Shown: one piece after another, positions 4,772-29,838 of the stretch
How the letters are laid out: every line of letters begins with the position of its first letter
Numbering within the stretch: the first letter of the stretch is position 1
DNA from: Candidatus Puniceispirillum sp.
GTDB taxonomy: Bacteria > Pseudomonadota > Alphaproteobacteria > Puniceispirillales > Puniceispirillaceae
Length of the DNA stretch: 33,788 bases
Assembly: GCA_017859295.1 (NCBI GenBank)
Contig: JAFMNI010000001.1
Span: forward strand, 33,848 to 67,635
Reading direction: 5' to 3'
Notes under the pieces: model-generated
Database searches by the model: none
What the model saw: only the letters and a program-made list of their open reading frames with translations
Told to the model about the DNA's origin: nothing
Translations under genes and position numbers: made by a program

Positions 4772-5677
4772 ATGGCCGGTTTCCAAGAACAATTGCAGCG
4801 TGACGCTGCGGCATGTGATGCTGTTTTGCAGCAATTAATTGCCGAAACAAAAGGGCCGGCAAACCGCCTTCTTGAGGCCATGCAATATGCTGTTTTCAAT
4901 GGCGGTAAACGCATGCGGGCGGCATTGGTTCTTGGCGCTTCGCGGATGGCGCGGGGCGATGGCGATGATGCAGTTGCCAGCAAAGGCGCGCTTCGCACCG
5001 CCGCGGCGATTGAATGTCTTCATGCCTATTCATTGGTTCATGATGATCTGCCTGCCATGGATGACGCTGATATGCGCCGTGGAAAGCCAAGCTGTCACAA
5101 GGTTTTTGGCGATGCAACCGCGATTCTGGCAGGCGATGCATTGCAAACAATGGCGTTTGAGATTCTGGCAGGCGCGGCCACGCATGATGATGCGGCTATT
5201 CGCCTTCGCCTTGTGGCGCAATTGGCCGGCGCGTCCGGCCGTGATGGCATGGCGGGTGGGCAGATGCTTGATCTTGAAGCCGAAACCCGCCCTTTTAATC
5301 TTGCTGAAACCAGCGAAATGCAAATGATGAAAACCGGCGCGCTGATTTCATGTGCGGTGATTTCTGGCGGTATTGTTGGCGGTGCGGATGACCAGCTATT
5401 GGCAGCGCAGGCAGCCTATGCCAAACATCTTGGGCTGGCGTTTCAGATTGCTGATGATTTGCTTGATTATGACGGTGATTCGGCGCTTCTTGGGAAACCG
5501 GCTGGACAAGATGCAGCACGCGGCAAAGCTGGTTTTGTGGCGCTGATGGGCGGTGATGCGGCAGCGGCCGAAGCCAAACGGCTTATTGATGAGGCGAATA
5601 ATGCGCTTGCCCCATGGCAGGGGGCTGGTGAATATATGCAAGAATTGGCGATATTCGCCATTACGCGCAAAACATGA
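4772..5677 (+). CDS. ispA: farnesyl diphosphate synthase / geranyltranstransferase
   Basis: This 301-residue short-chain trans-prenyltransferase condenses IPP with DMAPP and geranyl-PP to give farnesyl-PP, the precursor of undecaprenyl phosphate and quinone side chains. The first aspartate-rich motif is at residues 91-98 (DDLPAMDD) and the second at 228-232 (DDLLD). The GGKRMR substrate-binding motif is at 44-49. Its ATG is eight bases after the xseB stop and it precedes dxs, the first enzyme of the methylerythritol-phosphate pathway, so early and late isoprenoid steps are grouped. Length and motifs are complete. Confidence 0.95.
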   Translation: MAGFQEQLQRDAAACDAVLQQLIAETKGPANRLLEAMQYAVFNGGKRMRAALVLGASRMARGDGDDAVASKGALRTAAAIECLHAYSLVHDDLPAMDDADMRRGKPSCHKVFGDATAILAGDALQTMAFEILAGAATHDDAAIRLRLVAQLAGASGRDGMAGGQMLDLEAETRPFNLAETSEMQMMKTGALISCAVISGGIVGGADDQLLAAQAAYAKHLGLAFQIADDLLDYDGDSALLGKPAGQDAARGKAGFVALMGGDAAAAEAKRLIDEANNALAPWQGAGEYMQELAIFAITRKT

Positions 5678-5707
5678 TAGATTTACGATCTTCGGTTTTT
5701 TGGAGCT

Positions 5708-5781
5708 GCGGCAGTGATTGACGAAACAGGGTCAATGATTGGCCGCGATGGCTGCTAGAATCCAGTTACCGGTTTGCCGGT
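5708..5781 (+). promoter_or_regulatory. two consecutive hairpins in the dxs leader
   Basis: In the 129-base gap before dxs there is a nested inverted repeat: outer arms 5708-5712/5742-5746 (GCGGC/GCCGC) and inner arms 5717-5722/5731-5736 (ATTGAC/GTCAAT). A second small hairpin, ACCGG-TTTG-CCGGT, follows at 5768-5781, ending 25 bases before the dxs ATG. Neither has a clear T-tract. They do not match a riboswitch class I recognise by eye. Confidence 0.4.
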
Positions 5782-5806: not shown

Positions 5807-7744
5807 ATGCGCACACCGTTGCTTGATCACATAAAAGAGATTGATGATGTTCGGCGGCTTTCCGAAGCTGATTTGCCGCAGCTTGCCAATGAATTGCGCA
5901 CGGCAACCATTTCCGCTGTCTCGAAAACAGGTGGCCATCTTGGGGCGGGGCTTGGCGTTGTCGAGCTGACCGTTGCCTTGCATTATGTGTTTTCTACGCC
6001 AGAAGACCGCCTGATCTGGGATGTTGGACATCAAGCCTATCCGCATAAAATTCTGACCGGTCGGCGTGACCGAATTGAAAGCCTGCGGCAAAAAGGCGGG
6101 CTGTCGGGCTTTACCAAGCGAAGCGAATCAGCCTTTGATCCTTTTGGTGCGGGCCATTCCTCAACATCGATCTCGGCAGGACTTGGCATGGCAGTTGCCA
6201 GTGAAATGCAGGGCATTCCGCGCAATGTGATTGCGGTGATTGGTGATGGCGCAATGAGCGCTGGCATGGCCTATGAAGCGATGAATAATGCTGGCACAAG
6301 CAATAACCGGTTGATTGTGATTTTGAACGATAACGACATGTCGATTTCACAGCCGGTTGGCGCGATGAGCAGCTATTTGTCACGGCTCATCACCTCGCAG
6401 CCTTATCATTCGATCCGCGATCTGATGCGCGAAGTTGCCAGTCATTTCCCGGCAGAAATTGAACGGACGGCGCGACGAGCCAAAGATGCGGCGCGTGACC
6501 TGATGGGCGCAAATTCAGTTTTCAGCCAGCTTGGCTTTACCCATATCGGGCCAATTGACGGGCATGATATGGCGCATTTACTGCCGGTTCTGAAAAATCT
6601 TCGTGATTCGCGATCGCATGGGCCGGTATTGGTTCATGTTGTCACTGAAAAAGGTCATGGGCATCCTTTTGCGGGGCCATCGGCAGAAAAATACCATGCT
6701 GTTCCCAAATTCGATATTATCACCGGCACGCAGCAAAAATCTGGCGGCAATCTGCCAAGCTATACATCGGTTTTTGCCAATAGTTTGATTGCCGCTGCTG
6801 AAATTGATCCAAAGATTGTGGCAATTACGGCGGCGATGCCATCGGGTACTGGTCTTGATAAGGTCAAAGCGCGCTTTCCAAGTCGGGTTTTCGATGTGGG
6901 CATTGCCGAACAACATGCGGTGACTTTTGCGGCAGGGCTTGCCTGTGAGGGGATGAAACCGTTTTGTGCGCTATATTCGACCTTTCTTCAGCGTGGATAT
7001 GATCAACTTGTGCATGATGTCGCCGTGCAGAATCTGCCAGTACGCTTCGCCATTGATCGGGCAGGGCTGGTTGGCGCTGATGGGGCAACGCATGCGGGTG
7101 TTTATGATCTTGCCTATCTGTCCTGTTTGCCGAACATGGTCATTATGTGTCCATCGGATGAGGCGGAACTTGTTCATATGGTGGCAACCGCTGCGGCTTA
7201 TGATGATGGGCCGAGTGCGCTTCGCTATCCACGTGGCGAGGGGGTTGGCTGTGCTATCCCTGACGCAGGAGAGGTGCTTGAGATTGGCAAGGGGCGAATT
7301 CTACGCGAAGGCCGTGATGTTGCGATCCTGTCATTGGGAACCCGCCTTGGGGCGGCAAGTGAAGCGGCTGACCGGCTTGAAGGCGATGGCATTTCGGTTA
7401 CCGTTGCTGATGCGCGGTTTGCCAAGCCGCTTGATATGGCTTTGATTGATCAGCTGGCGACAAACCATAAAGCATTATTGATTGTCGAAGAAGGCAGCCC
7501 GGGTGGTTTTGCCGCCCATGTCATGACCTATCTTGGCAATGCTGGCCATCTTGATGGTGGGTTGAAAGCGCGTGCGCTTTGCTTGCCCGATGTCTTTATT
7601 GACCATGACAGCCAGCAAGGCCAATTGGCTTTTGCCGGTGTGGATTGTGATGGGATTTATGCGGCGGCGCGCAAAGTGATGCCGAAACCATCGGCAAAAA
7701 CCGCTTCGCCAAAGTCCAAGAAAACCTCGGCTGGTAAATCATAA
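5807..7744 (+). CDS. dxs: 1-deoxy-D-xylulose-5-phosphate synthase
   Basis: This 645-residue thiamine-diphosphate enzyme joins pyruvate and glyceraldehyde 3-phosphate to give DXP, the entry step to the MEP isoprenoid pathway and to thiamine and pyridoxal synthesis in many bacteria. Visible features are [16 protein letters not shown] near residue 70, the ThDP/Mg motif [16 protein letters not shown] near residue 146, the pyrimidine-domain [15 protein letters not shown], and [19 protein letters not shown] at 5800-5803 precedes the ATG closely. The last 20 residues form a Lys/Ser-rich tail ([11 protein letters not shown]) beyond the conserved core. It is most likely transcribed with ispA and tlyA. 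Confidence 0.96.
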
Positions 7745-7798
7745 ATCTGCCAGATTGCGCGGCTATGCGGGGCATCAATCACGATAGGATCATCGGGT

Positions 7799-8605
7799 TT
7801 GGCCAAATCACGAAAAACAAAGCAAGATAACGGCGCGACCATTGATGTGGCTGATCAAAAACAGCGTGCCGATGCATTGTTGTTGACGCGTGGGCTTGCG
7901 CGTTCGCGTGATCGGGCGCGTGACCTGATTGCCGAAGGTGCGGTTTTGGCGACTGGTGAGATCGTGCGTAAAGCCTCGAAAATGCTGGCAATTGATTGTG
8001 ACATTACGGTGACGTCGGCTGGTAATCCGTGGGTCAGCCGCGCTGGCATGAAATTGGCTGGTGGGCTGGCCGAATTTCCGATGATTGAAGTGGCTGGCCG
8101 TTACGCGATTGATATTGGCGCCAGCACGGGTGGTTTTACCGAAGTGTTATTGGCGCATGATGCCGCGCATGTTGTTGCCATTGATGTTGGCAATGGGCAA
8201 TTGGCAGACCATTTGGCAACCGACCCGCGGGTGACGGTGATGGATGCCACCAATGCCCGCTATCTAAAGCTGGATATGCTTTCTGAGGCGCCGCAGCTTG
8301 TGGTTTGTGATGCGTCGTTTATTTCACTGAAAAAAGTGCTTGTGCCAGCGTTGGAAATGGCCGCTGTCGGTGCTGGTCTTTTGGCTTTGATCAAACCGCA
8401 ATTTGAGGTAGGCAAAGGGCTTGTTGGCAAAGGCGGCATTGTTCGCGACCGCCATCTGCATGAAATGGTGATTGCCGATATTGAAAGCTGGCTGGTCACT
8501 GAAATGGGATGGCAGCATCTTGGTACCGCCGCGTCACCAATTGACGGGCCCGATGGAAACCGCGAATTTCTGCTTGCTGGCAAAAAGCCTGCCAAGGCAG
8601 GCTAG
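7799..8605 (+). CDS. tlyA: TlyA-family rRNA 2'-O-methyltransferase
   Basis: This 268-residue protein has an N-terminal S4 RNA-binding domain (about residues 22-80) and a FtsJ-like Rossmann methyltransferase domain with the SAM-binding motif DIGASTGGFTEVLL at 105-118. TlyA proteins methylate ribose in 16S/23S rRNA; the 'hemolysin' name often attached to them is historical. No in-frame ATG is suitable, and the start is taken as TTG at 7799 with AGGA at 7786-7789 spaced nine bases away. The 3' end of the coding region contains the hairpin that terminates the convergent aroC transcript. Confidence 0.93.
   Translation: MAKSRKTKQDNGATIDVADQKQRADALLLTRGLARSRDRARDLIAEGAVLATGEIVRKASKMLAIDCDITVTSAGNPWVSRAGMKLAGGLAEFPMIEVAGRYAIDIGASTGGFTEVLLAHDAAHVVAIDVGNGQLADHLATDPRVTVMDATNARYLKLDMLSEAPQLVVCDASFISLKKVLVPALEMAAVGAGLLALIKPQFEVGKGLVGKGGIVRDRHLHEMVIADIESWLVTEMGWQHLGTAASPIDGPDGNREFLLAGKKPAKAG
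8582..8603 (-). terminator. intrinsic terminator for fabI–aroC, inside the tlyA 3' end
   Basis: A perfect inverted repeat, AGCCTGCC-AA-GGCAGGCT (8586-8603), is followed on the minus strand by TTTTT (complement of AAAAA at 8582-8586). It is 12 bases beyond the aroC stop. On the plus strand there is no T-tract, so it should stop only minus-strand transcription. It is fully contained in the last codons of tlyA. Confidence 0.8.
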
Positions 8606-8614
8606 CCTATCTGT

Positions 8615-9715
8615 TTACGACAGATCAAACCCACATTGGGCTTTGTGCCGCATTAATAGATCGGCAAGCACCAAAGACATCATCGCTTCGGCGACCGGAA
8701 CGCCGCGAATGCCAACACAAGGGTCATGCCGCCCTTTGGTGACAACATCGACATTTTGATTGTCACGGTCGATTGATTGGCGCGGGGTCAAGATTGATGA
8801 TGTTGGCTTGATCGCAACGCGAACGACAATTTGCTGGCCGGTTGAAATGCCACCAAGAACACCACCCGCCTGATTACTAAGGAAGGTTGGGGTTTCAAGG
8901 CTGTTGCCAGCCCGCATTTCGTCACTAGCAAGACTGCCGTCAATGCCGGAAAGTGCAAAGCCACCGCCAATTTCAACGCCTTTGGCAGCGTTGATGCTCA
9001 TCATGGCCGCGGCAAGTTCACCGTCAAGCTTGCCAAAGATCGGCTGGCCAAGACCCACCGGAATACCATCGGCAATGATTTCGAGAATGGCACCTGCTGA
9101 TGATCCGGCTTTGCGCACCCCATCAAGATAGCTTTCCCATTGTTTTGCCATCGCTGCATCTGGACAGAAAAACGGGTTATTATGACGTTCGTCCCAATCC
9201 ATATTTGTGCGGTCAATGGCATGCGGCCCGATTTGCACAACGGCACCGCGGATTTGATAATCGCTGCCAAGAACCTTTTTCAAAAACATGTCGGCAATTG
9301 CACCAGCGGCAACCCGAACAGCGGTTTCGCGTGCCGATGACCGGCCACCACCGCGATAATCACGATGGCCATATTTCATCTGATAGGTGTAATCGGCATG
9401 GCCTGGACGGAATTGATTGGCAATCTCGCCATAATCTTTTGACCGTTGATCTTTATTGCGGATCAACAGGCCAATTGGCGTGCCGGTGGTTTTGCCCTCG
9501 AAAATGCCCGACAGGATTTCCACCTGATCATCTTCTTGCCGCTGGGTCACAAATTTGCTTGTTCCCGGGCGACGGCGATCAAGATACGGCTGGATCAAAG
9601 CTTCGCTAAGCGGCAGATTTGGCGGAACGCCATCAACAACACAGCCAATCGCCGACCCATGGCTTTCGCCAAAGCTCGTTACATTGAATAGGGTGCCAAA
9701 ACTATTATCTGCCAT
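8615..9715 (-). CDS. aroC: chorismate synthase
   Basis: This 366-residue enzyme converts 5-enolpyruvylshikimate 3-phosphate to chorismate, the last shikimate-pathway step, using reduced FMN. The N-terminal [20 protein letters not shown] and the central [21 protein letters not shown] are the two family signatures. The start is placed at 9715 rather than at an upstream in-frame codon at 9745 because the family begins with this sequence and the shorter form avoids overlapping fabI. Only one base separates this ATG from the fabI stop, so the two are almost certainly translated from one message. A Rho-independent terminator lies 12 bases downstream. Confidence 0.96.
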
Positions 9716-9716
9716 G

Positions 9717-10538
9717 CTAGACAACTGAAATATCAGGCGCGTCAACGGCTTTCATGCCAACAACATGATAGCCACAATCGACATGATGGGTTTCGCCAGT
9801 CACGCCGGATGCCAGATCAGACAAAAGATACATGCCAGCCCCGCCAACATCGGCAAGCGTCACATTGCGCTTGAGCGGCGAGTTATACTGGTTCCATTTC
9901 AGAATATACCGAAAATCGCCAATGCCAGATGCGGCCAAGGTTTTCATGGGACCAGCTGACAGACCATTGACGCGGATATTGCGTCCGCCAAGATCAACGG
10001 CAAGATAACGGATTGAGGCTTCAAGGGCTGCTTTTGCAACCCCCATGACATTGTAATGTGGCATGACGCGCTCGGCACCATAATAGGTCAGGGTCAGCAT
10101 CGAGCCACCATCATTCATCATCGCGGCAGCGCGGCGCGCAACGTCGGTGAAGGAATAGACCGAAATATCCATCGTCCGCGCGAAATTATCGCGGCTTGTA
10201 TCGACATAGCCGCCTTTCAATTCTTCCTTGTCGGAATAGGCAATGGCGTGAAGCACAAAATCCAAACTGCCCCATTTTTCTTTCAGCACATCAAAAGTGG
10301 CATCCATGCTGGCCTCGTCGGTGACATCGCATGGTATGACAAGATCGCTGCCAACCGAGGCTGCAAGCGGCTCAACCCGCTTTTGCAAAGCCTCACCTTG
10401 AAAGGTAAACGCAAGCTCGGCGCCCTGTTCAGCAAGTTTGGCAGCAATGCCCCACGCGATTGACCGGTCATTGGCAACGCCCATGATAAGGCCTTTTTTG
10501 CCCGCCATGACGCCAGATGATGATGCTGTATTTGACAT
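9717..10538 (-). CDS. fabI: enoyl-[acyl-carrier-protein] reductase (NADH), FabI
   Basis: This 273-residue SDR-family enzyme catalyses the last reduction of each fatty-acid elongation cycle. The nucleotide-binding turn reads [17 protein letters not shown] (about residues 16-32). The catalytic residues align with E. coli FabI Tyr146, Tyr156 and Lys163 as Tyr152, Tyr162 and Lys169 in [18 protein letters not shown], so it should be of the classical triclosan-target type rather than FabV or FabL. It is the first gene of the fabI–aroC pair. Upstream, on the same strand, lie two inverted repeats (10598-10611 and 10629-10661) that may bear on its expression. Confidence 0.95.
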
Positions 10539-10696: not shown

Positions 10697-11272
10697 TTAA
10701 CGAAGCGAATAGCTGATCCGGCGAACCACTTCAACGCGTGAACCAACCGCCAAGGGGCTTTTGCTTTCAAGCTTGATGATTTTGCCGTCAAGTTCGATAT
10801 GGTTTCGATAACCGGTGATTTCGCTGACATTTTCTTCCAGCATCACGGTTGTTACGGTGCAGGATTCCTGCTGTTTATAGCCAACAATGCGACTGTTTTT
10901 CTGGTTTTTCGCATGTTCGCGGCCAAGAATGGCACCAGCAACAGTTCCGGCGGCGCCAGCCCCATCATTGTCGGAAAATTTATTACCGACCGCCGATCCG
11001 ATCAGGCCACCAATAATCATTGACCCAAGTTCGGAGTTGCCCTCGCTCTCGGCGTAAATCGGCACATCTTCGGTGCGGCAATTGCGCTGATCTGTTGGCG
11101 TTTTGCGAATATAGGTTGATGTTAGGGTGATGGTGTCTACCACTGTGCCAACAACCGTCTCAACGCGCGTTTCTGCGGCGGCGCTGCCAACCATCAGTGA
11201 TCCAGACATAATCACGGCGGCAACTGGGGCGACAAGGCGGCAAAGCGGCGTATTCACTGTCATTCGGGTCAT
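10697..11272 (-). CDS. secreted glycine-zipper 2TM (17-kDa-antigen-like) envelope protein
   Basis: This 191-residue protein has an N-terminal signal sequence (basic start, hydrophobic LVAPVAAVIMSGSLMVGSAAA, cleavage likely after AAA near residue 33). A glycine-zipper membrane motif follows at about residues 80-113 (GSMIIGGLIGSAVGNKF, then GAAGTVAGAILGRE). This is the domain of the Rickettsia 17-kDa surface antigen and SlyB-type proteins, generally associated with the outer membrane. No lipobox cysteine is seen at the cleavage region, so it is probably not a lipoprotein. The first ATG is preferred because AAAGGTG sits just before it, while the ATG three codons later has no such site. The function is not established. 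Confidence 0.8.
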   Translation of the reverse strand: MTRMTVNTPLCRLVAPVAAVIMSGSLMVGSAAAETRVETVVGTVVDTITLTSTYIRKTPTDQRNCRTEDVPIYAESEGNSELGSMIIGGLIGSAVGNKFSDNDGAGAAGTVAGAILGREHAKNQKNSRIVGYKQQESCTVTTVMLEENVSEITGYRNHIELDGKIIKLESKSPLAVGSRVEVVRRISYSLR

Positions 11273-22214: not shown

Positions 22215-23384
22215 ATGGCGGTGATAAATTCGATTGCAGATCGTGAACAGGATATGAAGGCATGGCGGCATCTGCTGCATCAGCATCCTGAAACAAGCTA
22301 TGAAGAAGTTTGGACATCCGATTTCATTGCCGCAAAATTGCAGTCATTTGGTATCGAGATTCATCGTGGTATGGGAAAGACTGGCGTTGTTGGGGTTTTG
22401 CGCGGCACTGGCAATGGCTCGTCGGCAATCGGATTGCGGGCCGATATGGACGCGCTGCCAATGCAGGAAATGAACGAATTTGCCCATGCGTCCAAAACAC
22501 CCGGGCGGATGCATGCTTGTGGGCATGACGGGCATAGCACGATGCTTCTCGGCGCGGCGCAATATCTTGCGGAAACGCGTAATTTTGATGGCACTGTCTA
22601 TTTCATCTTTCAGCCAGCCGAAGAAGGCGGCAAGGGCGGCGAAGCGATGATCAAGGATGGGCTGTTTGATCAGTTTGACATGAAAACCGTTTGGGGGATG
22701 CATAATTGGCCCGGCATGGATGTTGGGAAAATTGGCGTTCATAGCGGTGCCTGTATGGCAGCGGCGGATATGTTTGAAATGCGCATCACCGGATCTGGGG
22801 GGCATGCGGCGATCCCTGATCTTGCCATTGATCCGATTCCGTGTGGGGCGGCGATTGTGCAATCATTGCAATCGATCGTTTCACGCCGTGTTGCGGCGCT
22901 TGAACCGGCGGTTGTTTCGGTGACGATTTTCGAGTCGGGAAGTGCCTTTAATGTGATTCCGGGCTCGGCGCGGCTTGGCGGTACAGCGCGGTCATTTTCG
23001 CCTGATGTTCGCAAATTGCTTGAAGATTCGATCCATGAAATCGCTATAGCAACAGCCAAGGCCTATGATTGTGAGATTGAAATTGACTGGCAGCCAGGCT
23101 ATCCGCCAACGGTCAATCATGCCGAAGAATCGGCGCGTGCTGTTGCTGTTGCCGCCAATATCCTTGGTGCAGACAATATCATCACCGATCTGCAGCCATC
23201 AATGGGGGCTGAAGATTTTGCCTATATGCTTGCCGAAAGGCCGGGATCCTACATCTGGCTTGGGGCAGGGCCTGCCAAGAATGGGGCGATGCTGCATAAT
23301 GATCGTTATGATTTTAACGATGATGTTCTTGCCACCGGTGCCAGCTATTGGGCGCGGCTGGTTGAAAGCGAATTGCCGAAATAA
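22215..23384 (+). CDS. M20-family metal-dependent amidohydrolase (HipO-like)
   Basis: This 389-residue peptidase-family M20D protein resembles hippurate hydrolase/N-acyl-amino-acid amidohydrolases. Metal ligands and catalytic residues are visible: Cys102 and His104 in HACGHDGH, Glu136-Glu137 in FQPAEEGG, and His163 in MHNWPG; a C-terminal LHNDRYDFND holds the last histidine. A dimerisation domain lies around 185-300. It would hydrolyse an N-acyl (or related amide) bond of an amino acid in the cytosol; there is no signal peptide. TTAGGAC precedes the ATG. Its divergence from soxB suggests, weakly, a substrate related to methylated amines, but HipO-like enzymes vary widely in substrate. Confidence 0.88.
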   Translation: MAVINSIADREQDMKAWRHLLHQHPETSYEEVWTSDFIAAKLQSFGIEIHRGMGKTGVVGVLRGTGNGSSAIGLRADMDALPMQEMNEFAHASKTPGRMHACGHDGHSTMLLGAAQYLAETRNFDGTVYFIFQPAEEGGKGGEAMIKDGLFDQFDMKTVWGMHNWPGMDVGKIGVHSGACMAAADMFEMRITGSGGHAAIPDLAIDPIPCGAAIVQSLQSIVSRRVAALEPAVVSVTIFESGSAFNVIPGSARLGGTARSFSPDVRKLLEDSIHEIAIATAKAYDCEIEIDWQPGYPPTVNHAEESARAVAVAANILGADNIITDLQPSMGAEDFAYMLAERPGSYIWLGAGPAKNGAMLHNDRYDFNDDVLATGASYWARLVESELPK

Positions 23385-23484
23385 TCCGTTAATTTATCTT
23401 TTGCCAGCGGGTGTTGCGGGGTGATTCGCCCAATATCCTATCGATTTTGCCCGATATTCTAGCGATCTTAAAAGATGGAAAATC

Positions 23485-23513
23485 TTGACTTTGGCATAGG
23501 TCTAAAATAGAAC
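23485..23513 (+). promoter_or_regulatory. predicted promoter of imuA–imuB–dnaE2
   Basis: TTGACT (23485-23490, five of six consensus) and TAGAAC (23508-23513, four of six) are spaced 17 bases. The -10 overlaps the left half of the LexA box, the standard layout for SOS repression. This is a by-eye prediction. Confidence 0.55.
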
Positions 23514-23524
23514 AAAACATGAAC
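23510..23524. promoter_or_regulatory. LexA (SOS) box upstream of imuA
   Basis: GAAC-AAAACAT-GAAC is an exact match to the alphaproteobacterial direct-repeat LexA site (GTTC-N7-GTTC read on the other strand). It lies 35 bases before the imuA start and overlaps the predicted -10 element. imuA–imuB–dnaE2 operons are known LexA targets in this class. Confidence 0.9.
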
Positions 23525-23558
23525 AAAAGGCAGATATATATGATAGGAATCAGGCAAA

Positions 23559-24485
23559 ATGCAAAGGATGAACCAGCCTATATCAATCGCAAAATCATCT
23601 GATTTTAGGGCATCTAATGATCAGATTATAAACGAAAAAAAGACATATGACCTTGCCCGCCTTCGACAAGAAATTGCCGTGGCTGATGGTTATGATAAGC
23701 GTCTTTATATGCCGCTTGGTGTCGATTCGCTGGATCAGGCATTGGCTGGTGGGCTGACGCTTGGGCGGGTGCATCTTTTAATGGGTGCGATGCAGGCTCA
23801 TGGGGCGGTAAGCGGCTTTGCTATGGCGCTTCTTGATTTGCTGCAACATCACGCGCAGCAGATAAAGCCCAAGCAAGCTAGCAATCGGCCAACAGCGGCC
23901 ATAAATGATGCTGGTCTGATTGTCTGGTGTCCGGCAAGCCAGCGAAATGGTGCTGGTATGTTATATGGGCATGGGCTTGCCGCGGCTGGGCTGGATCCGG
24001 CGCGATTGCTGATTGTTGATACACCAAACCCGTCACGGCGTTTGGCCGCGCTTGATGATATTTTGCGAACCGAAGGCCTGGCCGCGGTTGTGATGGAATA
24101 TGATGGGGTGCAGAAATCGGCTGATTACTGGATGCGGCTGGCACGACGTGCGCAGCTTGCCGCCGAAGATAGCGGCACAACAGCTTTTCTGCTTGGCGCA
24201 CCAGTTGGGGTTGCTGGATTTGAAACAGCTTGGCAGATCAAACCGGCGGCCGATCTTGACAGATGGTCACATTCTGCCTTGGTTCAACGCAGTGTCTGGG
24301 ATTTGACATTGCAGCGCGCGCGTGGTGGCAGGCCGCATAAATGCAGGGTTGGCTGGCAGGCGGGTCTTGGTCAATTGCAGGCCTGTGATCATAACATCAT
24401 GGCCAATGGCAAATTGGTTCAGGCCGAATTGCCCATCGCTGACTTGTCAGCCAGTCACTGGTCAGCGCAAGCTCTTGCCCGATAG
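23559..24485 (+). CDS. imuA: ImuA, mutasome accessory protein
   Basis: This 308-residue RecA-fold-like protein is the first gene of an imuA–imuB–dnaE2 cassette. The segment DSLDQALAGGLTLGRVHLLM (about residues 52-70) is the family hallmark in the place of a Walker A region; no intact GxxxxGKT is seen, so ATPase activity by the classical motif is doubtful. In Caulobacter ImuA is needed with ImuB and DnaE2 for damage-induced mutagenesis. The promoter region carries a perfect LexA box. ImuB starts 10 bases after the stop. Confidence 0.88.
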   Translation: MQRMNQPISIAKSSDFRASNDQIINEKKTYDLARLRQEIAVADGYDKRLYMPLGVDSLDQALAGGLTLGRVHLLMGAMQAHGAVSGFAMALLDLLQHHAQQIKPKQASNRPTAAINDAGLIVWCPASQRNGAGMLYGHGLAAAGLDPARLLIVDTPNPSRRLAALDDILRTEGLAAVVMEYDGVQKSADYWMRLARRAQLAAEDSGTTAFLLGAPVGVAGFETAWQIKPAADLDRWSHSALVQRSVWDLTLQRARGGRPHKCRVGWQAGLGQLQACDHNIMANGKLVQAELPIADLSASHWSAQALAR

Positions 24486-24495
24486 GCATGTGATC

Positions 24496-26127
24496 ATGCC
24501 CGTTTCCTATCGTCATATTATCTATATCCATTTTCCCTATCTGGCCGCATCGCGGATCCAGAGAGCATCTGGGCAAAGGGAATCTGGAGCTGATCTGCCG
24601 CTTGTTATAATCCGGAAAGTCAACGGCGCTGATATTATTCTGGCGGGTTGTACCAAAGCGGCAGCGCATGGTCTTGCCGCTGGTATGCAGCTTGCCGATG
24701 CCCGCGCCTTATGCCCACAACTCAGAACCGAAGCATATGACCCGCTAGCCGACCATGCCGATCTTCATCATCTGGCTTTATGGGCGCGCCGTTATAGCCC
24801 GCTTACCGCGGTTGATGATCAGCATTGCGGAATCTGGATTGATATTGCTGGTGCCGAACATCTGTTTGGCGGGGTGCGTTCGCTATTAGCCGATTGCGCC
24901 AAACGCCTTCATCGAAGTCACTTTCGGGCGGTGCTGGCGGCGGCACCAAATTGCGGCGCGGCGTGGGCCTTGGCGCATTATGGAAAGCCGTCAGAGCGGT
25001 TAATGACCGCACCGAAACCGGCAGATGGACAGCCGGACACGGTAAGATATATTTTCAGCCGCGCCCGCTTGCGACGCCATCTGGCAGCATTGCCGCTTGC
25101 TGCATTGCGAATCGATACGGCAATTGCCGATCATATGCGGCGCGCAGGCTTGCGGGCGATTGGGGATATTATTGGATTGGCGCGTGCGCCATTGGCCGCG
25201 CGTTTTGGTCAGGATGTGCTTCTTCGGCTTGATCAGGCGCTTGGCGATCAGGATGAAAGCTTTACAGCTGTTAGCCCGCCAAAACCGCTTTATATATGCC
25301 GTCAATTTGCCGAACCCATTGGCGCAGCTGATGATATCAAGGCGATGATTCGCCAATTGGCAAGTGAAACAGCCACTTTGCTTCAACAGGCCGGATTGGC
25401 AACACGCCGTTTGCGGCTTGGCTGGCAATTGGTTGATGGGCTGGTTTTTGCACATGATGTGCATCTTTCGCGGCCAAGCCGTGATGTGACTTTATTTCAC
25501 CGCTTGCTGGCCAATGCCAGCGACAAGATCAACCCTGAATTTGGTCTTGAAATGGGCTGGATGGAATCGCTTGATTGCAGCCCCCTTGCGCCACTTGATA
25601 CGGCTTTGCCGCATATGATGTTGCAGCGCCATGATGGGGTTGCAGGCGAATCCTATGCCAGCCTTGTTGACCGGTTGGTGGCACGTCTTGGCTATGGTGC
25701 CGTGGTCAGATTGGCACCGCAAGCCTGCTGGCAACCCGAAGCGGCGCAATCGTTTAAATTGCCTGATCCAAGCCAGATTTTCACCAAAACGGACGAAAAA
25801 TCAGGTTGGCTTGGTGATCCGGCATCAGGCACTGCGCCACCACGCCCCATTCGCCTTTTGGCCTATCCGCACCCTGTTGATGTTGTCGCGCTTCTTCCCG
25901 ATCACCCGCCAGCGCAATTTATCTGGCGGCGGCGAATTCATAAAATCATTCATGCCACAGGGCCAGAACGGATTGCCCCTGCATGGTGGCAGGCACCCGC
26001 TGGCAGTCGCACCCGCGATTATTTTCGGTTACGCGATGATCAGGGGGCAGGGTTCTGGCTATATCGTGAAGGTTTGCCAGAACGTCACGAAACCCCATCT
26101 TGGTTTTTGCATGGGTTTTTCGCCTGA
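24496..26127 (+). CDS. imuB: ImuB, catalytically degenerate Y-family polymerase
   Basis: This 543-residue protein has the Y-family (UmuC/DinB) fold but is expected to be a non-catalytic adaptor that links DnaE2 and ImuA to the beta clamp. By alignment in my reading, the first metal-binding Asp of active enzymes is His in YIHFPYLAAS (about residue 11), and the Asp-Glu pair of motif III is Cys-Gly in HCGIWIDIAGAEHLFGG. A helix-hairpin-helix region follows near ADHMRRAGLRAIGDIIGLA. The frame is open upstream into imuA, but the ATG at 24496 gives the family N-terminus. The stop overlaps the dnaE2 start (TGATG). Confidence 0.9.
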   Translation: MPVSYRHIIYIHFPYLAASRIQRASGQRESGADLPLVIIRKVNGADIILAGCTKAAAHGLAAGMQLADARALCPQLRTEAYDPLADHADLHHLALWARRYSPLTAVDDQHCGIWIDIAGAEHLFGGVRSLLADCAKRLHRSHFRAVLAAAPNCGAAWALAHYGKPSERLMTAPKPADGQPDTVRYIFSRARLRRHLAALPLAALRIDTAIADHMRRAGLRAIGDIIGLARAPLAARFGQDVLLRLDQALGDQDESFTAVSPPKPLYICRQFAEPIGAADDIKAMIRQLASETATLLQQAGLATRRLRLGWQLVDGLVFAHDVHLSRPSRDVTLFHRLLANASDKINPEFGLEMGWMESLDCSPLAPLDTALPHMMLQRHDGVAGESYASLVDRLVARLGYGAVVRLAPQACWQPEAAQSFKLPDPSQIFTKTDEKSGWLGDPASGTAPPRPIRLLAYPHPVDVVALLPDHPPAQFIWRRRIHKIIHATGPERIAPAWWQAPAGSRTRDYFRLRDDQGAGFWLYREGLPERHETPSWFLHGFFA

Positions 26128-29100
26128 TGGCCCTATTGCGTAAACAAGGCCAAGCCGCATCACATGCGTTGCTTGGCTGTTATAGTAATTTCACCTTTTT
26201 AAAGGGCGCATCGCATCCTGATGAAATGGTGGCACAGGCGGCCGCGCTTGGGTGGGCGGCGGTTGGCATTGCCGATGTGAATTCGCTGGCCGGTATTGTG
26301 CGGGCGCATGTGGCGGCGCGTGATCACCAGATCAGGCTTGTTGTTGGTGCCAGATTACGCCCTGCCGATGGTCCTGATATTATTGTTCATCCGTGTGACC
26401 GCGTTGGTTATGAAGCTTTATCAATGCTGCTAAGCGAGGCCAATATGCGAGGCAGCAAAGCCGCGCCAATTCTCTATCTTGCCGATCTTGCCCGCCTGCC
26501 AGCAAGCACCGCATTGCTGGTCATGCCGCCGCGTCATCCAGATGCGTATTACCAAACGCATTTGCAGACCATTCGCCAAATTGCCAAAGGGCAATTATTT
26601 GCAGGGATTTGCCTATATCGTGATGGGGCTGATGAGGCACGATGCCAGATGTTAGCGGCAGCGGCAGCGGCGCTGGGGCTGCGGGTGGCGGCAGCGGCAG
26701 ATGCGCTTTATCACATTCCTGATCGCCGCCCGCTTGCCGATGTTCTGGCGTGCATCCGTGAAAAGCAACAGCTTGATGATGCTGGCTATCTTATTTCGCG
26801 CAATGCCGAACGCCATTTGATTGATTGTGCCGAGGCTGAACGGCGTTGGCGGCATGTGCCAGATGCGCTTGATGGGGCAAAAGCGCTTGCAGATTTATGC
26901 CATTTTTCAATGGATGATTTGTCTTATGAATATCCTGACGAGCTAAAGCCGAGTGGACGAACCGCCATGCAGGAACTGGCCTTCCAGACATGGCGCGGCG
27001 CTGAAAAACGCTATCCTGATGCGATCCCTGATAAGGTAAGTGCCTATCTGAAACATGAATTGATCTTGATCGAGCGTTTGAATATTGCGCCTTATTTTCT
27101 GACCGTCTTTGATATTGTTCGCTTTGCGCGGGGGCGCGGTATTTTATGTCAGGGGCGCGGTTCGGCGGCGAATTCGGCGGTTTGCTATTGTTTGGGCATT
27201 ACCGCGGTTGATCCTGAACGATCGCAACCCTTATTTGAACGTTTTGTCAGCGAGGCGCGTGGTGAGCCGCCAGATATTGATGTCGATTTCGAACATGAAC
27301 GCCGCGAAGAAGTGATCCAGCATATCTATGCAAAATATGGCCGGAATCGTGCTGGCCTTACCGCCAGTGTGATTACCTATCGTCGCCGCAGCGCATTTCG
27401 CGAAGTGGCAAAGGTGTTTGGCCTTAGCCGTGATGTTCAGGCGGCCTTGGCTGGCGAGGTATGGGGGCGTGAAAAAACCGGCCTTGATGCTGCGGCGCTG
27501 GCCGCGGCGGGACTGGATGCCAATGACCGGCGACTGCGGTTGGTTTTACAATTAGTGGCCGATATCAGCCGGTTTCCACGGCATTTGTCACAACATGTTG
27601 GCGGGTTTGTGATCACCCGTGGGCGGCTTGATCATCTATGCCCGATCAGCCCTGCGGCGATGGCTGGCCGTACCGTGATCGAATGGGATAAGGATGATCT
27701 TGATGCGCTTGGCTTGTTAAAAGTCGATGTGCTTGCGCTTGGCATGCTAAGCTGTATCAGGCGCAGTTTTGATTTGCTTCGCACGCATTATAACCGACAT
27801 TTAACGCTAGCATCATTGCCGCCTGAAGATATGAAAACCTATGACATGCTATGTCGGGGGCAGTCGGTTGGGGTTTTTCAGGTTGAATCGCGGGCGCAGA
27901 TGGCGATGTTGCCGCGCCTGCAACCGCGCTGTTTTCACGATCTTGTTGTGCAGGTAGCGATTGTCCGCCCGGGCCCTATTCAGGGCGACATGGTTCACCC
28001 TTATTTGCGGCGGCGTGCCGGTTTGGAAAAGGTGGATTACCCGTCAGATGCCTTGCGTGATGTTCTTGAACGCACGCTTGGTGTGCCGCTATTTCAAGAA
28101 CAGGCAATGCAGATTGCCATTGTTGGGGCGGGGTTTTCGGGCGCTGAGGCCGACCAGCTGCGCCGAACGATGGCGACGTTCAAAAAGCAGGGAAACATAA
28201 GCCATTTCCGCAATAAAATGATCAATGGCATGATCGAGCGCGGCTATGATGAAGCGTTTGCCATTCGCTGTTTTCGCCAGATCGAAGGCTTTGGCATGTA
28301 TGGCTTTCCTGAATCACATGCGGCAAGCTTTGCGCTGTTGGTCTATGTGTCGGCATGGCTGAAATGCCATTATCCAGATGTGTTTATCTGTGCCTTGCTG
28401 AATGCCCAGCCGATGGGGTTTTATGCACCAGCGCAATTAATTGCCGAAGCCAAACAAAACAACATTACCATCCGCCCCGTTGATGTGAATTTTTCAGGCT
28501 GGGATCACCGTCTTGAAACCGACCCTGACAATCGAAAGGGTCATCATGCGTTACGGTTGGGTTTGCGGCTTGTCAAAGGGCTGGCGCGCGGTGAAGGTGA
28601 ACGGATTGCCGCCAGCCAAATAGCCGCCAGCCAAACAAGCAATGGCGGAAAACAGACAGGATTAAGCTTTTCCAGCCTTGATGATGTCATGCGAAAAGCC
28701 GATGTATCGGCAAAATCATTACAGGCCATTGCCGATGCGGATGGTTTTGCCAGCCTTGCGATTGACCGGCGACAGGCATTATGGGCAGCACGCGGACTGG
28801 CGCGGCACCGGCTGCATGATATGCCATTATTTGCCCTTGCTGGTCGCCGGCATGAACGGCTTGCGGGGAATGAACCGGTGATCGAATTGCCGCAAGCCGA
28901 ACTTGGTGAAAACGTGGCTGAAGATTACCGCAATCTTGGCCTGTCATTAAAAGCGCATCCCCTCGATTTGCTGGCAAAGCCGCTTGGTCTGGCTGGCTGG
29001 CAGCTTTGCAGCCATGTCCAAAATGCACCTGACGGGAAACGGCTTCGCATTGCTGGTCTGGTGACGATGCGTCAACGACCCGGCACCGCCAGCGGTACGG

Positions 29101-29348
29101 TTTTCATAACGCTTGAAGATGGGCAGGGCACGGCGAATGTGATTATATGGCCAAAATTAACCGAAACCTATCGCGAGGCATTGTTGCGGGCGCAGATTTT
29201 AGGGCTGGTTGGCCGCGTCCAACGCCAGCAGGCGGTGATTCATATCATTGCCGAATCTCTGTTTAACCTGAACGGGTTTTTGCGTCATATCGATGCCAGC
29301 AGCGGCAGCAAAAATGCCGTTCGGATGAAAAGCAGAGATTTTCATTAA
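26127..29348 (+). CDS. dnaE2: error-prone DNA polymerase III alpha subunit DnaE2
   Basis: This 1073-residue C-family polymerase performs translesion synthesis during the SOS response. In order it has an N-terminal PHP domain (LLGCYSNFTFLKGASHPDEMV, from about residue 15), the catalytic palm with Asp383 and Asp385 in PDIDVDFEHERREE and Asp534 in LLKVDVLALGML, a thumb/fingers region, a helix-hairpin-helix, and a C-terminal OB fold (RIAGLVTMRQRPGTASGTVF, about 975 on). The ATG overlaps the imuB stop, so translation is coupled; a start nine codons earlier would overlap imuB further. Residues 827-836 are a tandem IAASQ-IAASQ duplication. A complete active site implies a functional polymerase. Confidence 0.95.
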   Translation: MALLRKQGQAASHALLGCYSNFTFLKGASHPDEMVAQAAALGWAAVGIADVNSLAGIVRAHVAARDHQIRLVVGARLRPADGPDIIVHPCDRVGYEALSMLLSEANMRGSKAAPILYLADLARLPASTALLVMPPRHPDAYYQTHLQTIRQIAKGQLFAGICLYRDGADEARCQMLAAAAAALGLRVAAAADALYHIPDRRPLADVLACIREKQQLDDAGYLISRNAERHLIDCAEAERRWRHVPDALDGAKALADLCHFSMDDLSYEYPDELKPSGRTAMQELAFQTWRGAEKRYPDAIPDKVSAYLKHELILIERLNIAPYFLTVFDIVRFARGRGILCQGRGSAANSAVCYCLGITAVDPERSQPLFERFVSEARGEPPDIDVDFEHERREEVIQHIYAKYGRNRAGLTASVITYRRRSAFREVAKVFGLSRDVQAALAGEVWGREKTGLDAAALAAAGLDANDRRLRLVLQLVADISRFPRHLSQHVGGFVITRGRLDHLCPISPAAMAGRTVIEWDKDDLDALGLLKVDVLALGMLSCIRRSFDLLRTHYNRHLTLASLPPEDMKTYDMLCRGQSVGVFQVESRAQMAMLPRLQPRCFHDLVVQVAIVRPGPIQGDMVHPYLRRRAGLEKVDYPSDALRDVLERTLGVPLFQEQAMQIAIVGAGFSGAEADQLRRTMATFKKQGNISHFRNKMINGMIERGYDEAFAIRCFRQIEGFGMYGFPESHAASFALLVYVSAWLKCHYPDVFICALLNAQPMGFYAPAQLIAEAKQNNITIRPVDVNFSGWDHRLETDPDNRKGHHALRLGLRLVKGLARGEGERIAASQIAASQTSNGGKQTGLSFSSLDDVMRKADVSAKSLQAIADADGFASLAIDRRQALWAARGLARHRLHDMPLFALAGRRHERLAGNEPVIELPQAELGENVAEDYRNLGLSLKAHPLDLLAKPLGLAGWQLCSHVQNAPDGKRLRIAGLVTMRQRPGTASGTVFITLEDGQGTANVIIWPKLTETYREALLRAQILGLVGRVQRQQAVIHIIAESLFNLNGFLRHIDASSGSKNAVRMKSRDFH
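28605..28634 (+). repeat. 15-bp tandem duplication inside dnaE2
   Basis: Two adjacent 15-base units (28605-28619 and 28620-28634) differ at one base and encode IAASQ twice in frame. The insert lies in a Ser/Gln-rich surface-type linker. Confidence 0.85.
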
Positions 29349-29409
29349 AGATTAATTTTGAACATGATGACGCAAATGATAAAGCAAATGATTATTGTGG
29401 GAGGAAGCT

Positions 29410-29838
29410 ATGGCTCATGTCAAAGATATCGCCATCACCAAAGGTAAAATTTACCTAGGTGGTTGCCATTGCAGGGGTGTCCGGTTTTGCCTAACCGGTC
29501 CATTGCGTCAGGCGTTGATTTGCCATTGCCGTGATTGTTTTCAGATTGCCGGTCTTAGCTGGGGTTCGACCTCGGTTCCGGATGACAGCTTTGAGCTGAA
29601 CGCCCAGCAAACGCTTGGCTGGTATGACAGTTCGGCCTGGGCCAAACGCGGATTTTGCCGAAATTGCGGTGCGTCGTTGTTTTATCGCCTAAATGGCATC
29701 TCCCGAACATCAGTTGCCATTGGCATGCTTGATGATGCCAATGATCTGGTGATTGCTGGCCAGATTTTTGCCAATAGCCACCCGCATTGGGATCGGCTGC
29801 GCCCCCATGATTTGCCGCATCTTGATGATCAGTTTTGA
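29410..29838 (+). CDS. GFA/CENP-V-family zinc protein
   Basis: This 142-residue protein has the GFA (glutathione-dependent formaldehyde-activating-like) beta fold with zinc-binding cysteines: Cys19 and Cys21 in GGCHCRGVRF, Cys38, Cys40 and Cys43 in CHCRDC, and Cys82 and Cys85 in FCRNCGAS. The family is named for S-hydroxymethylglutathione formation in Paracoccus, but most members, probably including this one, have unproven function. The ATG at 29410 has GGAGG just upstream and begins the conserved protein; an upstream codon at 29395 overlaps that site. It stands alone after dnaE2 and converges on the carboxypeptidase gene. Confidence 0.85.
   Translation: MAHVKDIAITKGKIYLGGCHCRGVRFCLTGPLRQALICHCRDCFQIAGLSWGSTSVPDDSFELNAQQTLGWYDSSAWAKRGFCRNCGASLFYRLNGISRTSVAIGMLDDANDLVIAGQIFANSHPHWDRLRPHDLPHLDDQF

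Follow-up and report, generated by a model that had tools for sequence, protein, structure and literature searches.

Does a lineage of the sunlit surface ocean carry a mutagenesis system that DNA damage could switch on, and what would hold that switch in place? SAR116 bacteria are common in surface seawater and are under constant sunlight damage. We examined a stretch of 33,788 nucleotides (hereafter, the window) from Candidatus Puniceispirillum sp. (assembly GCA_017859295.1, contig JAFMNI010000001.1, positions 33,848 to 67,635), a genus that NCBI taxonomy places within the Puniceispirillaceae, Alphaproteobacteria. At 23485-29348 it carries imuA, imuB and dnaE2 behind a predicted operator for the SOS repressor LexA. 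We conclude with high confidence that this locus is a LexA-controlled ImuA–ImuB–DnaE2 translesion mutasome operon of a SAR116 bacterium, served by one RpoD-type promoter that shares the bases GAAC with the first operator half site. This would place a complete predicted system of inducible mutagenesis in a common surface-ocean lineage. The features are as follows.

23485-23490, forward strand: -35 element TTGACT of the imuA promoter (from the sequence; the distance of TTGAC is conserved)
23508-23513, forward strand: -10 element TAGAAC, the GAAC of which is also the first LexA half site (from the sequence; fit to the Caulobacter RpoD -10)
23510-23524, forward strand: predicted LexA operator GAACAAAACATGAAC, a perfect GAAC-N7-GAAC (motif match; conserved upstream of imuA)
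23559-24485, forward strand: imuA, 308 residues, probable RecA-like accessory protein (weak match to NCBIfam NF033429; position and homologues)
24496-26127, forward strand: imuB, 543 residues, Y-family homologue predicted to be inactive (Pfam IMS and IMS_C; alignments)
26127-29348, forward strand: dnaE2, 1073 residues, error-prone C-family polymerase with motifs PDIDVDF and KVDVLAL (NCBIfam NF004225)

DnaE2 scores 1315 bits against NF004225 (cut-off, 939) and is distinct from a separate replicative DnaE1 on contig C176. ImuB matches both of its Pfam families barely over the cut-offs, and its C-terminal region aligns with those of other alphaproteobacterial ImuBs. Its first motif reads YIHFPYLAA, without an aspartate, and acidic residues are replaced; by comparison with active Y-family polymerases, the catalytic site is predicted to be broken. 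ImuA matches NF033429 weakly (E = 1.3e-8; 35 bits, below the curated cut-off of 150) and has no Pfam match; its position, and homologues across the class that stand behind an operator, support the assignment. Searches of PDB sequences with ImuB and with ImuA gave no matches, and an AlphaFold model of ImuB (mean predicted local distance difference test score, 38.5) was discarded as too poor.

As the initial annotation had proposed, the three genes follow one another with a 10-base gap (24486-24495) and an overlapping junction, at which the dnaE2 ATG at 26127 shares one base with the stop codon of imuB (TGATG). This order is kept in all ten related loci found in named records, seven of them titled Candidatus Puniceispirillum or SAR116 and three only Alphaproteobacteria. 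DnaE2 is 84-99% identical across the ten, in two of which dnaE2 is cut (L123 and L124), and ImuA is 89-95% identical in five, including L126, where imuA is cut, over part of the protein. The same M20 peptidase gene lies upstream of the operon in nine of the ten; L126 begins within imuA.

Two relatives show irregularities in these genes. In the metagenome-assembled locus L122, dnaE2 is matched in two frames near 11061-11066, which reflects a frameshift or an assembly error. In L061 (genome G008), the reading frame that aligns with the window's imuA runs into a TAA after eight codons, and the start of that imuA may therefore lie further downstream, or the gene may be damaged.

Operator and promoter upstream of imuA

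The GTTC-N7-GTTC box of alphaproteobacterial LexA and the LexA-controlled imuABC of Caulobacter are described in passages of earlier work (PMC9578287, PMC3901139 and PMC12700426). In the window, the perfect GAAC-N7-GAAC overlaps a TTGACT/TAGAAC pair with a 17-base spacer, exactly as the initial annotation had read it, and the final four bases of TAGAAC are also the first half site.

Conservation carries the case for this operator. We surveyed 61 genomes of the order and 385 of the class. Of the 61, 33 have an ImuA; all of these are among the 37 members of the Puniceispirillaceae, and the 24 genomes outside the family gave none. Thirty imuA loci were taken from these (G019, G029 and G031 were left out), and 29 have a perfect box upstream; the exception, L064, ends at a contig edge. 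In the class, ImuA is present in 143 of 385 genomes; from those outside the order, the 26 loci with the best scores were taken, and in 24 of them the box precedes imuA. Within the order, the spacer of the box is mostly AAAACA(A/T); in the class loci outside it, the spacer varies more. An exact distance of 19 bases from the end of TTGAC to the box is kept by all 13 genus loci for which upstream sequence is available, by 19 of 29 in the order and by 12 of 24 in the class; shuffling the letters of the upstream sequences gave expectations of 0.03 (order) and 0.02 (class).

The -10 consensus of Caulobacter RpoD is GCTANAWC, according to an excerpt of PMC8144410, and AATAGAAC fits it at five of the seven defined positions, of which GAAC, by providing NAWC, secures three by itself. 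Together with the four bases before the box, GAAC reaches a fit of at least 5/7 at 25 of the 29 loci in the order and at 19 of the 24 in the class. GAAC thus corresponds to the 3' half of this -10 consensus, and from these comparisons a LexA half site can fill that role in Alphaproteobacteria. A half site doubling as the 3' half of the -10 element would offer a simple reason for the operator to stay with the promoter and not drift. No terminator-like site was found in 23380-23600 or, directly past dnaE2, in 29300-29460.

On this layout, LexA bound to the operator would block RNA polymerase from the -10 element. DNA damage would lead to RecA-stimulated self-cleavage of LexA, the promoter would be freed and the products of imuA, imuB and dnaE2 would be made together. 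DnaE2 would then copy past lesions with errors, with ImuB as the hub and ImuA as a RecA-like partner. LexA binding, induction, complex formation and mutagenesis are all predicted here from homologues, and the tight repression and damage-inducible mutagenesis foreseen in the initial annotation would likewise follow by analogy with other bacteria. Its suspicion of a streamlined marine lineage holds for the habitat, as the relatives are SAR116, and only mildly for streamlining: genomes of the same genus that are at least 98% complete measure approximately 2.0-2.6 Mb.

Several observations weigh against this reading. A generic E. coli-type promoter scan found no promoter upstream of imuA: its rule demands a T at the end of the -10 hexamer, as in TATAAT, and TAGAAC, which ends in C, scores poorly by that standard. 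In the remaining ten of the 29 order loci, TTGAC stands 24-33 bases before the box, which would therefore fall just past the -10 element; the other 12 of the 24 in the class comprise two that lack TTGAC and ten in which it stands 12-21 bases away. The overlap of -10 element and box is therefore common, not universal. recA, the presence of which in this genome fits the reading, is preceded only by imperfect boxes, two with one mismatch each, at 226 and 256 bases from the assumed ATG. The assembly, 94% complete, has no match to PF01726 of LexA and three weak, sub-cut-off matches to TIGR00498. Lastly, ImuB lacks the glutamine of its clamp motif, so the mycobacterial model of recruitment may not apply unchanged. 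The last two points each support an alternative explanation, considered below.

The clamp motif of ImuB

In mycobacteria, the ImuB motif QLPLWG is required for clamp foci and for mutagenesis, as reported in part of PMC10421592. We aligned 54 ImuBs, drawn from 64 sequences or regions examined, of which two gave no imuB, four were fragments and four duplicates. The conserved glutamine column, which lies in a variable linker and is for that reason the weak point of the comparison, reads Q in 22 of 23 alphaproteobacteria outside SAR116 (the remaining one is cut off) and in none of the 31 SAR116 proteins, 13 of them from this genus, which have D, T, N, A, C, E or S instead. In the window, residue 368 is aspartate. 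The fragment L194, outside the aligned column, showed the glutamine in an earlier alignment, and an earlier, looser count of strings before a landmark (10 of 35 SAR116 and 17 of 21 others) is superseded by this column.

The missing glutamine raises another explanation: that the SAR116 mutasome is decaying, or works differently, through a lost contact of ImuB with the beta-clamp. The uniform absence of the glutamine speaks for it, as does the replicative polymerase, because DnaE1 keeps QxSLF or QxNLF in all seven SAR116 genomes chosen; from this retention, the clamp pocket is probably ordinary and the change located in ImuB. DnaE2 in the same seven genomes, the SAR116 proteins being those compared, has xPLF without a glutamine. 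However, the hydrophobic residues of the motif are retained in SAR116 ImuBs, three of the 31 have a glutamine one residue earlier, and looser strings of glutamine, two residues and two hydrophobic residues occur somewhere in 20 of 31 SAR116 proteins, as against six of the 23 from elsewhere, which would allow for a relocated contact. The genes in the window also look intact, and the high identity of DnaE2 in the ten related loci does not suggest decay. We consider this explanation unlikely. The window ImuB does lack the QxxL-type clamp motif used to recognize a mutasome cassette; variation of the motif between ImuB groups is already in print (in a passage of PMC12926913), and its absence is therefore no ground for excluding the locus from that class.

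The lexA gene and the abundance of the box

The reading of the locus as a LexA-controlled operon raises the question of where LexA itself is encoded. The initial annotation had counted absence of the gene against LexA control; the assembly indeed shows none, but synteny assigns it a place. LexA is present in 48 of the 61 order genomes, in 37 of 40 good assemblies and in 11 of 15 genomes of the same genus. In the closest genome, G005, the DNA-binding domain of LexA lies at 5575-5766 of a 12 kb query. Bases 1-2913 of this query match the present genome up to the very end of contig C138 (base 12283 of 12283), and bases 6660-10520 match from the first base of contig C82; the only other match, of 58 bases, is elsewhere. 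Approximately 3.7 kb, including lexA, is thus missing between the end of C138 and the start of C82. Because the lexA stretch of G005 falls exactly between these ends, lexA most likely lies in an assembly gap.

That LexA was truly lost, leaving the operon constitutive or under another repressor that uses the old operator, draws on the missing matches noted above and on a second genus of the family, g8, which lacks a PF01726 match in all three of its genomes (G022, G030 and G035), one of them 96% complete. The contig ends just described and the identity of the operator to that of LexA-bearing genomes of the same genus (for example, G004, G005 and G010) make such a loss very improbable, and we rejected it for this species after the synteny comparison. 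In genus g8, the imuA boxes are kept in both loci taken, L068 and L073; loss of LexA, divergence and gaps are all possible there.

Promoters of lexA resemble that of imuA. Twenty order loci were taken from the 48 genomes with LexA, and 17 have a perfect box, with TTG at the same 19-base distance in 15 of these; the other three have no perfect box. In 12 of the 20 loci (among L033-L052), perfect boxes occur as an overlapping pair with one half site in common, giving three GAAC in register, and in L036 (1450-1475) and other lexA loci the last box begins at the likely -10.

Counts of the motif give a different picture from its position. The window holds two perfect matches against 0.55 expected, a number reached in nine of 100 shuffles. 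A genome-wide scan for further GTTC-N7-GTTC sites, proposed in the initial annotation, returned 29 matches, about the chance number: the reversed control pattern is commoner, at 114, and the window rate scaled to 1.84 Mb predicts approximately 30. Of the 29, 24 sit within open reading frames (ORFs) of at least 70 codons. The letters of the motif are by themselves not above chance, and we rejected frequency as support; position and conservation carry the significance. That the imuA box is itself such a chance match, with no regulation of the operon, finds backing in these counts and is nonetheless scarcely credible, given near-identical boxes before imuA, with TTGAC at a preferred fixed distance, in nearly all loci taken in the order, at ImuA identities down to approximately 33%, and in the class. 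The second match in the window is listed here as a chance occurrence, and its candidacy as an operator of the downstream gene was rejected because it lies within an ORF.

29564-29578, reverse strand: second perfect GAAC-N7-GAAC match, inside the GFA-domain ORF 29395-29838

Elsewhere in this genome, on contig C66 (L009:1501-1515), an intergenic GAAC-N7-GAAC lies between genes that by translation are site-specific DNA methyltransferase-like and ribonuclease HII-like.

A two-CxxC gene and known mutasomes

The identical 15-base box has one other copy in this genome, upstream of a protein of 93 residues with two CxxC pairs.

Contig C186:1676-1954, reverse strand: unannotated gene of the 93-residue two-CxxC protein (L095), with its box at L024:1501-1515

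The protein matches no Pfam or NCBIfam family above cut-off. Homologues occur in 26 of the 61 order genomes, all within the Puniceispirillaceae, and a perfect box stands upstream in all 25 assessable loci of these 26. Class-wide, a homologue is present in 39 of 385 genomes. Outside the family, 15 of the 25 loci taken have a perfect box no more than 450 bases from the first CxxC; one of the boxless loci offered only 68 bases of upstream sequence. Six of these 15 boxes read GTTCTTGTTATGTTC, which a passage of PMC12700426 also gives for two SOS genes in Caulobacter, a likeness of boxes only that leaves aside homology to the two-CxxC gene. Among the upstream sequences read by eye, none has TTGAC at the 19-base distance. 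The conserved box makes this gene a likely, undescribed SOS gene.

Across the class, ImuA accompanies the two-CxxC gene in 30 of 39 genomes and occurs in 113 of the 346 that lack this gene (Fisher p, 1e-7), an association confounded by shared ancestry and by the presence of an SOS response. The complete genome G020 has the gene with its box and no ImuA match. For these reasons, we do not support the protein as a mutasome subunit.

We suggest, tentatively and as something that may well prove otherwise, a SAR116 variant of the mutasome in which ImuB lacks a glutamine-anchored grip on the clamp and would be recruited by DnaE2, by ImuA or RecA, or through a weak or relocated contact, and in which the operator is common to an undescribed, zinc-ribbon-like two-CxxC SOS protein of several alphaproteobacterial families, maybe as part of the same response. 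The changed ImuB motif and the shared operator of the small gene give two concrete experimental leads. A literature search on SAR116 with LexA or the SOS response, or with dnaE2, returned nothing but one unrelated paper.

Gene content, operon layout, operator, promoter spacing and their conservation are shown here, and synteny makes the place of lexA a probable assembly gap. The system is of a known kind, in which the fusion of promoter and operator, the change in ImuB and the CxxC gene most deserve further work. Pol V of E. coli (UmuD'2C) has a Y-family rather than a C-family catalytic subunit, other accessory proteins and another operator. It resembles the present system as an SOS-induced mutagenic polymerase (part of PMC9578287). 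The mycobacterial ImuA'–ImuB–DnaE2 mutasome has the same functional set under LexA control (passages of PMC10421592), but dnaE2 is at another locus (PMC3901139, in part), ImuB binds the clamp through QLPLWG, which it needs for function (PMC10421592), and the LexA box is GAAC-N4-GTTC (as given in an excerpt of PMC3323433). The imuABC of Caulobacter crescentus and other alphaproteobacteria has the same three genes in the same order, in a single operon with an operator of the GTTC-N7-GTTC type (passages of PMC3901139 and PMC9578287). The present locus differs from it in that the clamp-motif glutamine of ImuB is replaced by aspartate and in that, throughout the genus, promoter and operator share GAAC, a comparison that leaves aside Caulobacter's own imuA promoter and ImuB.

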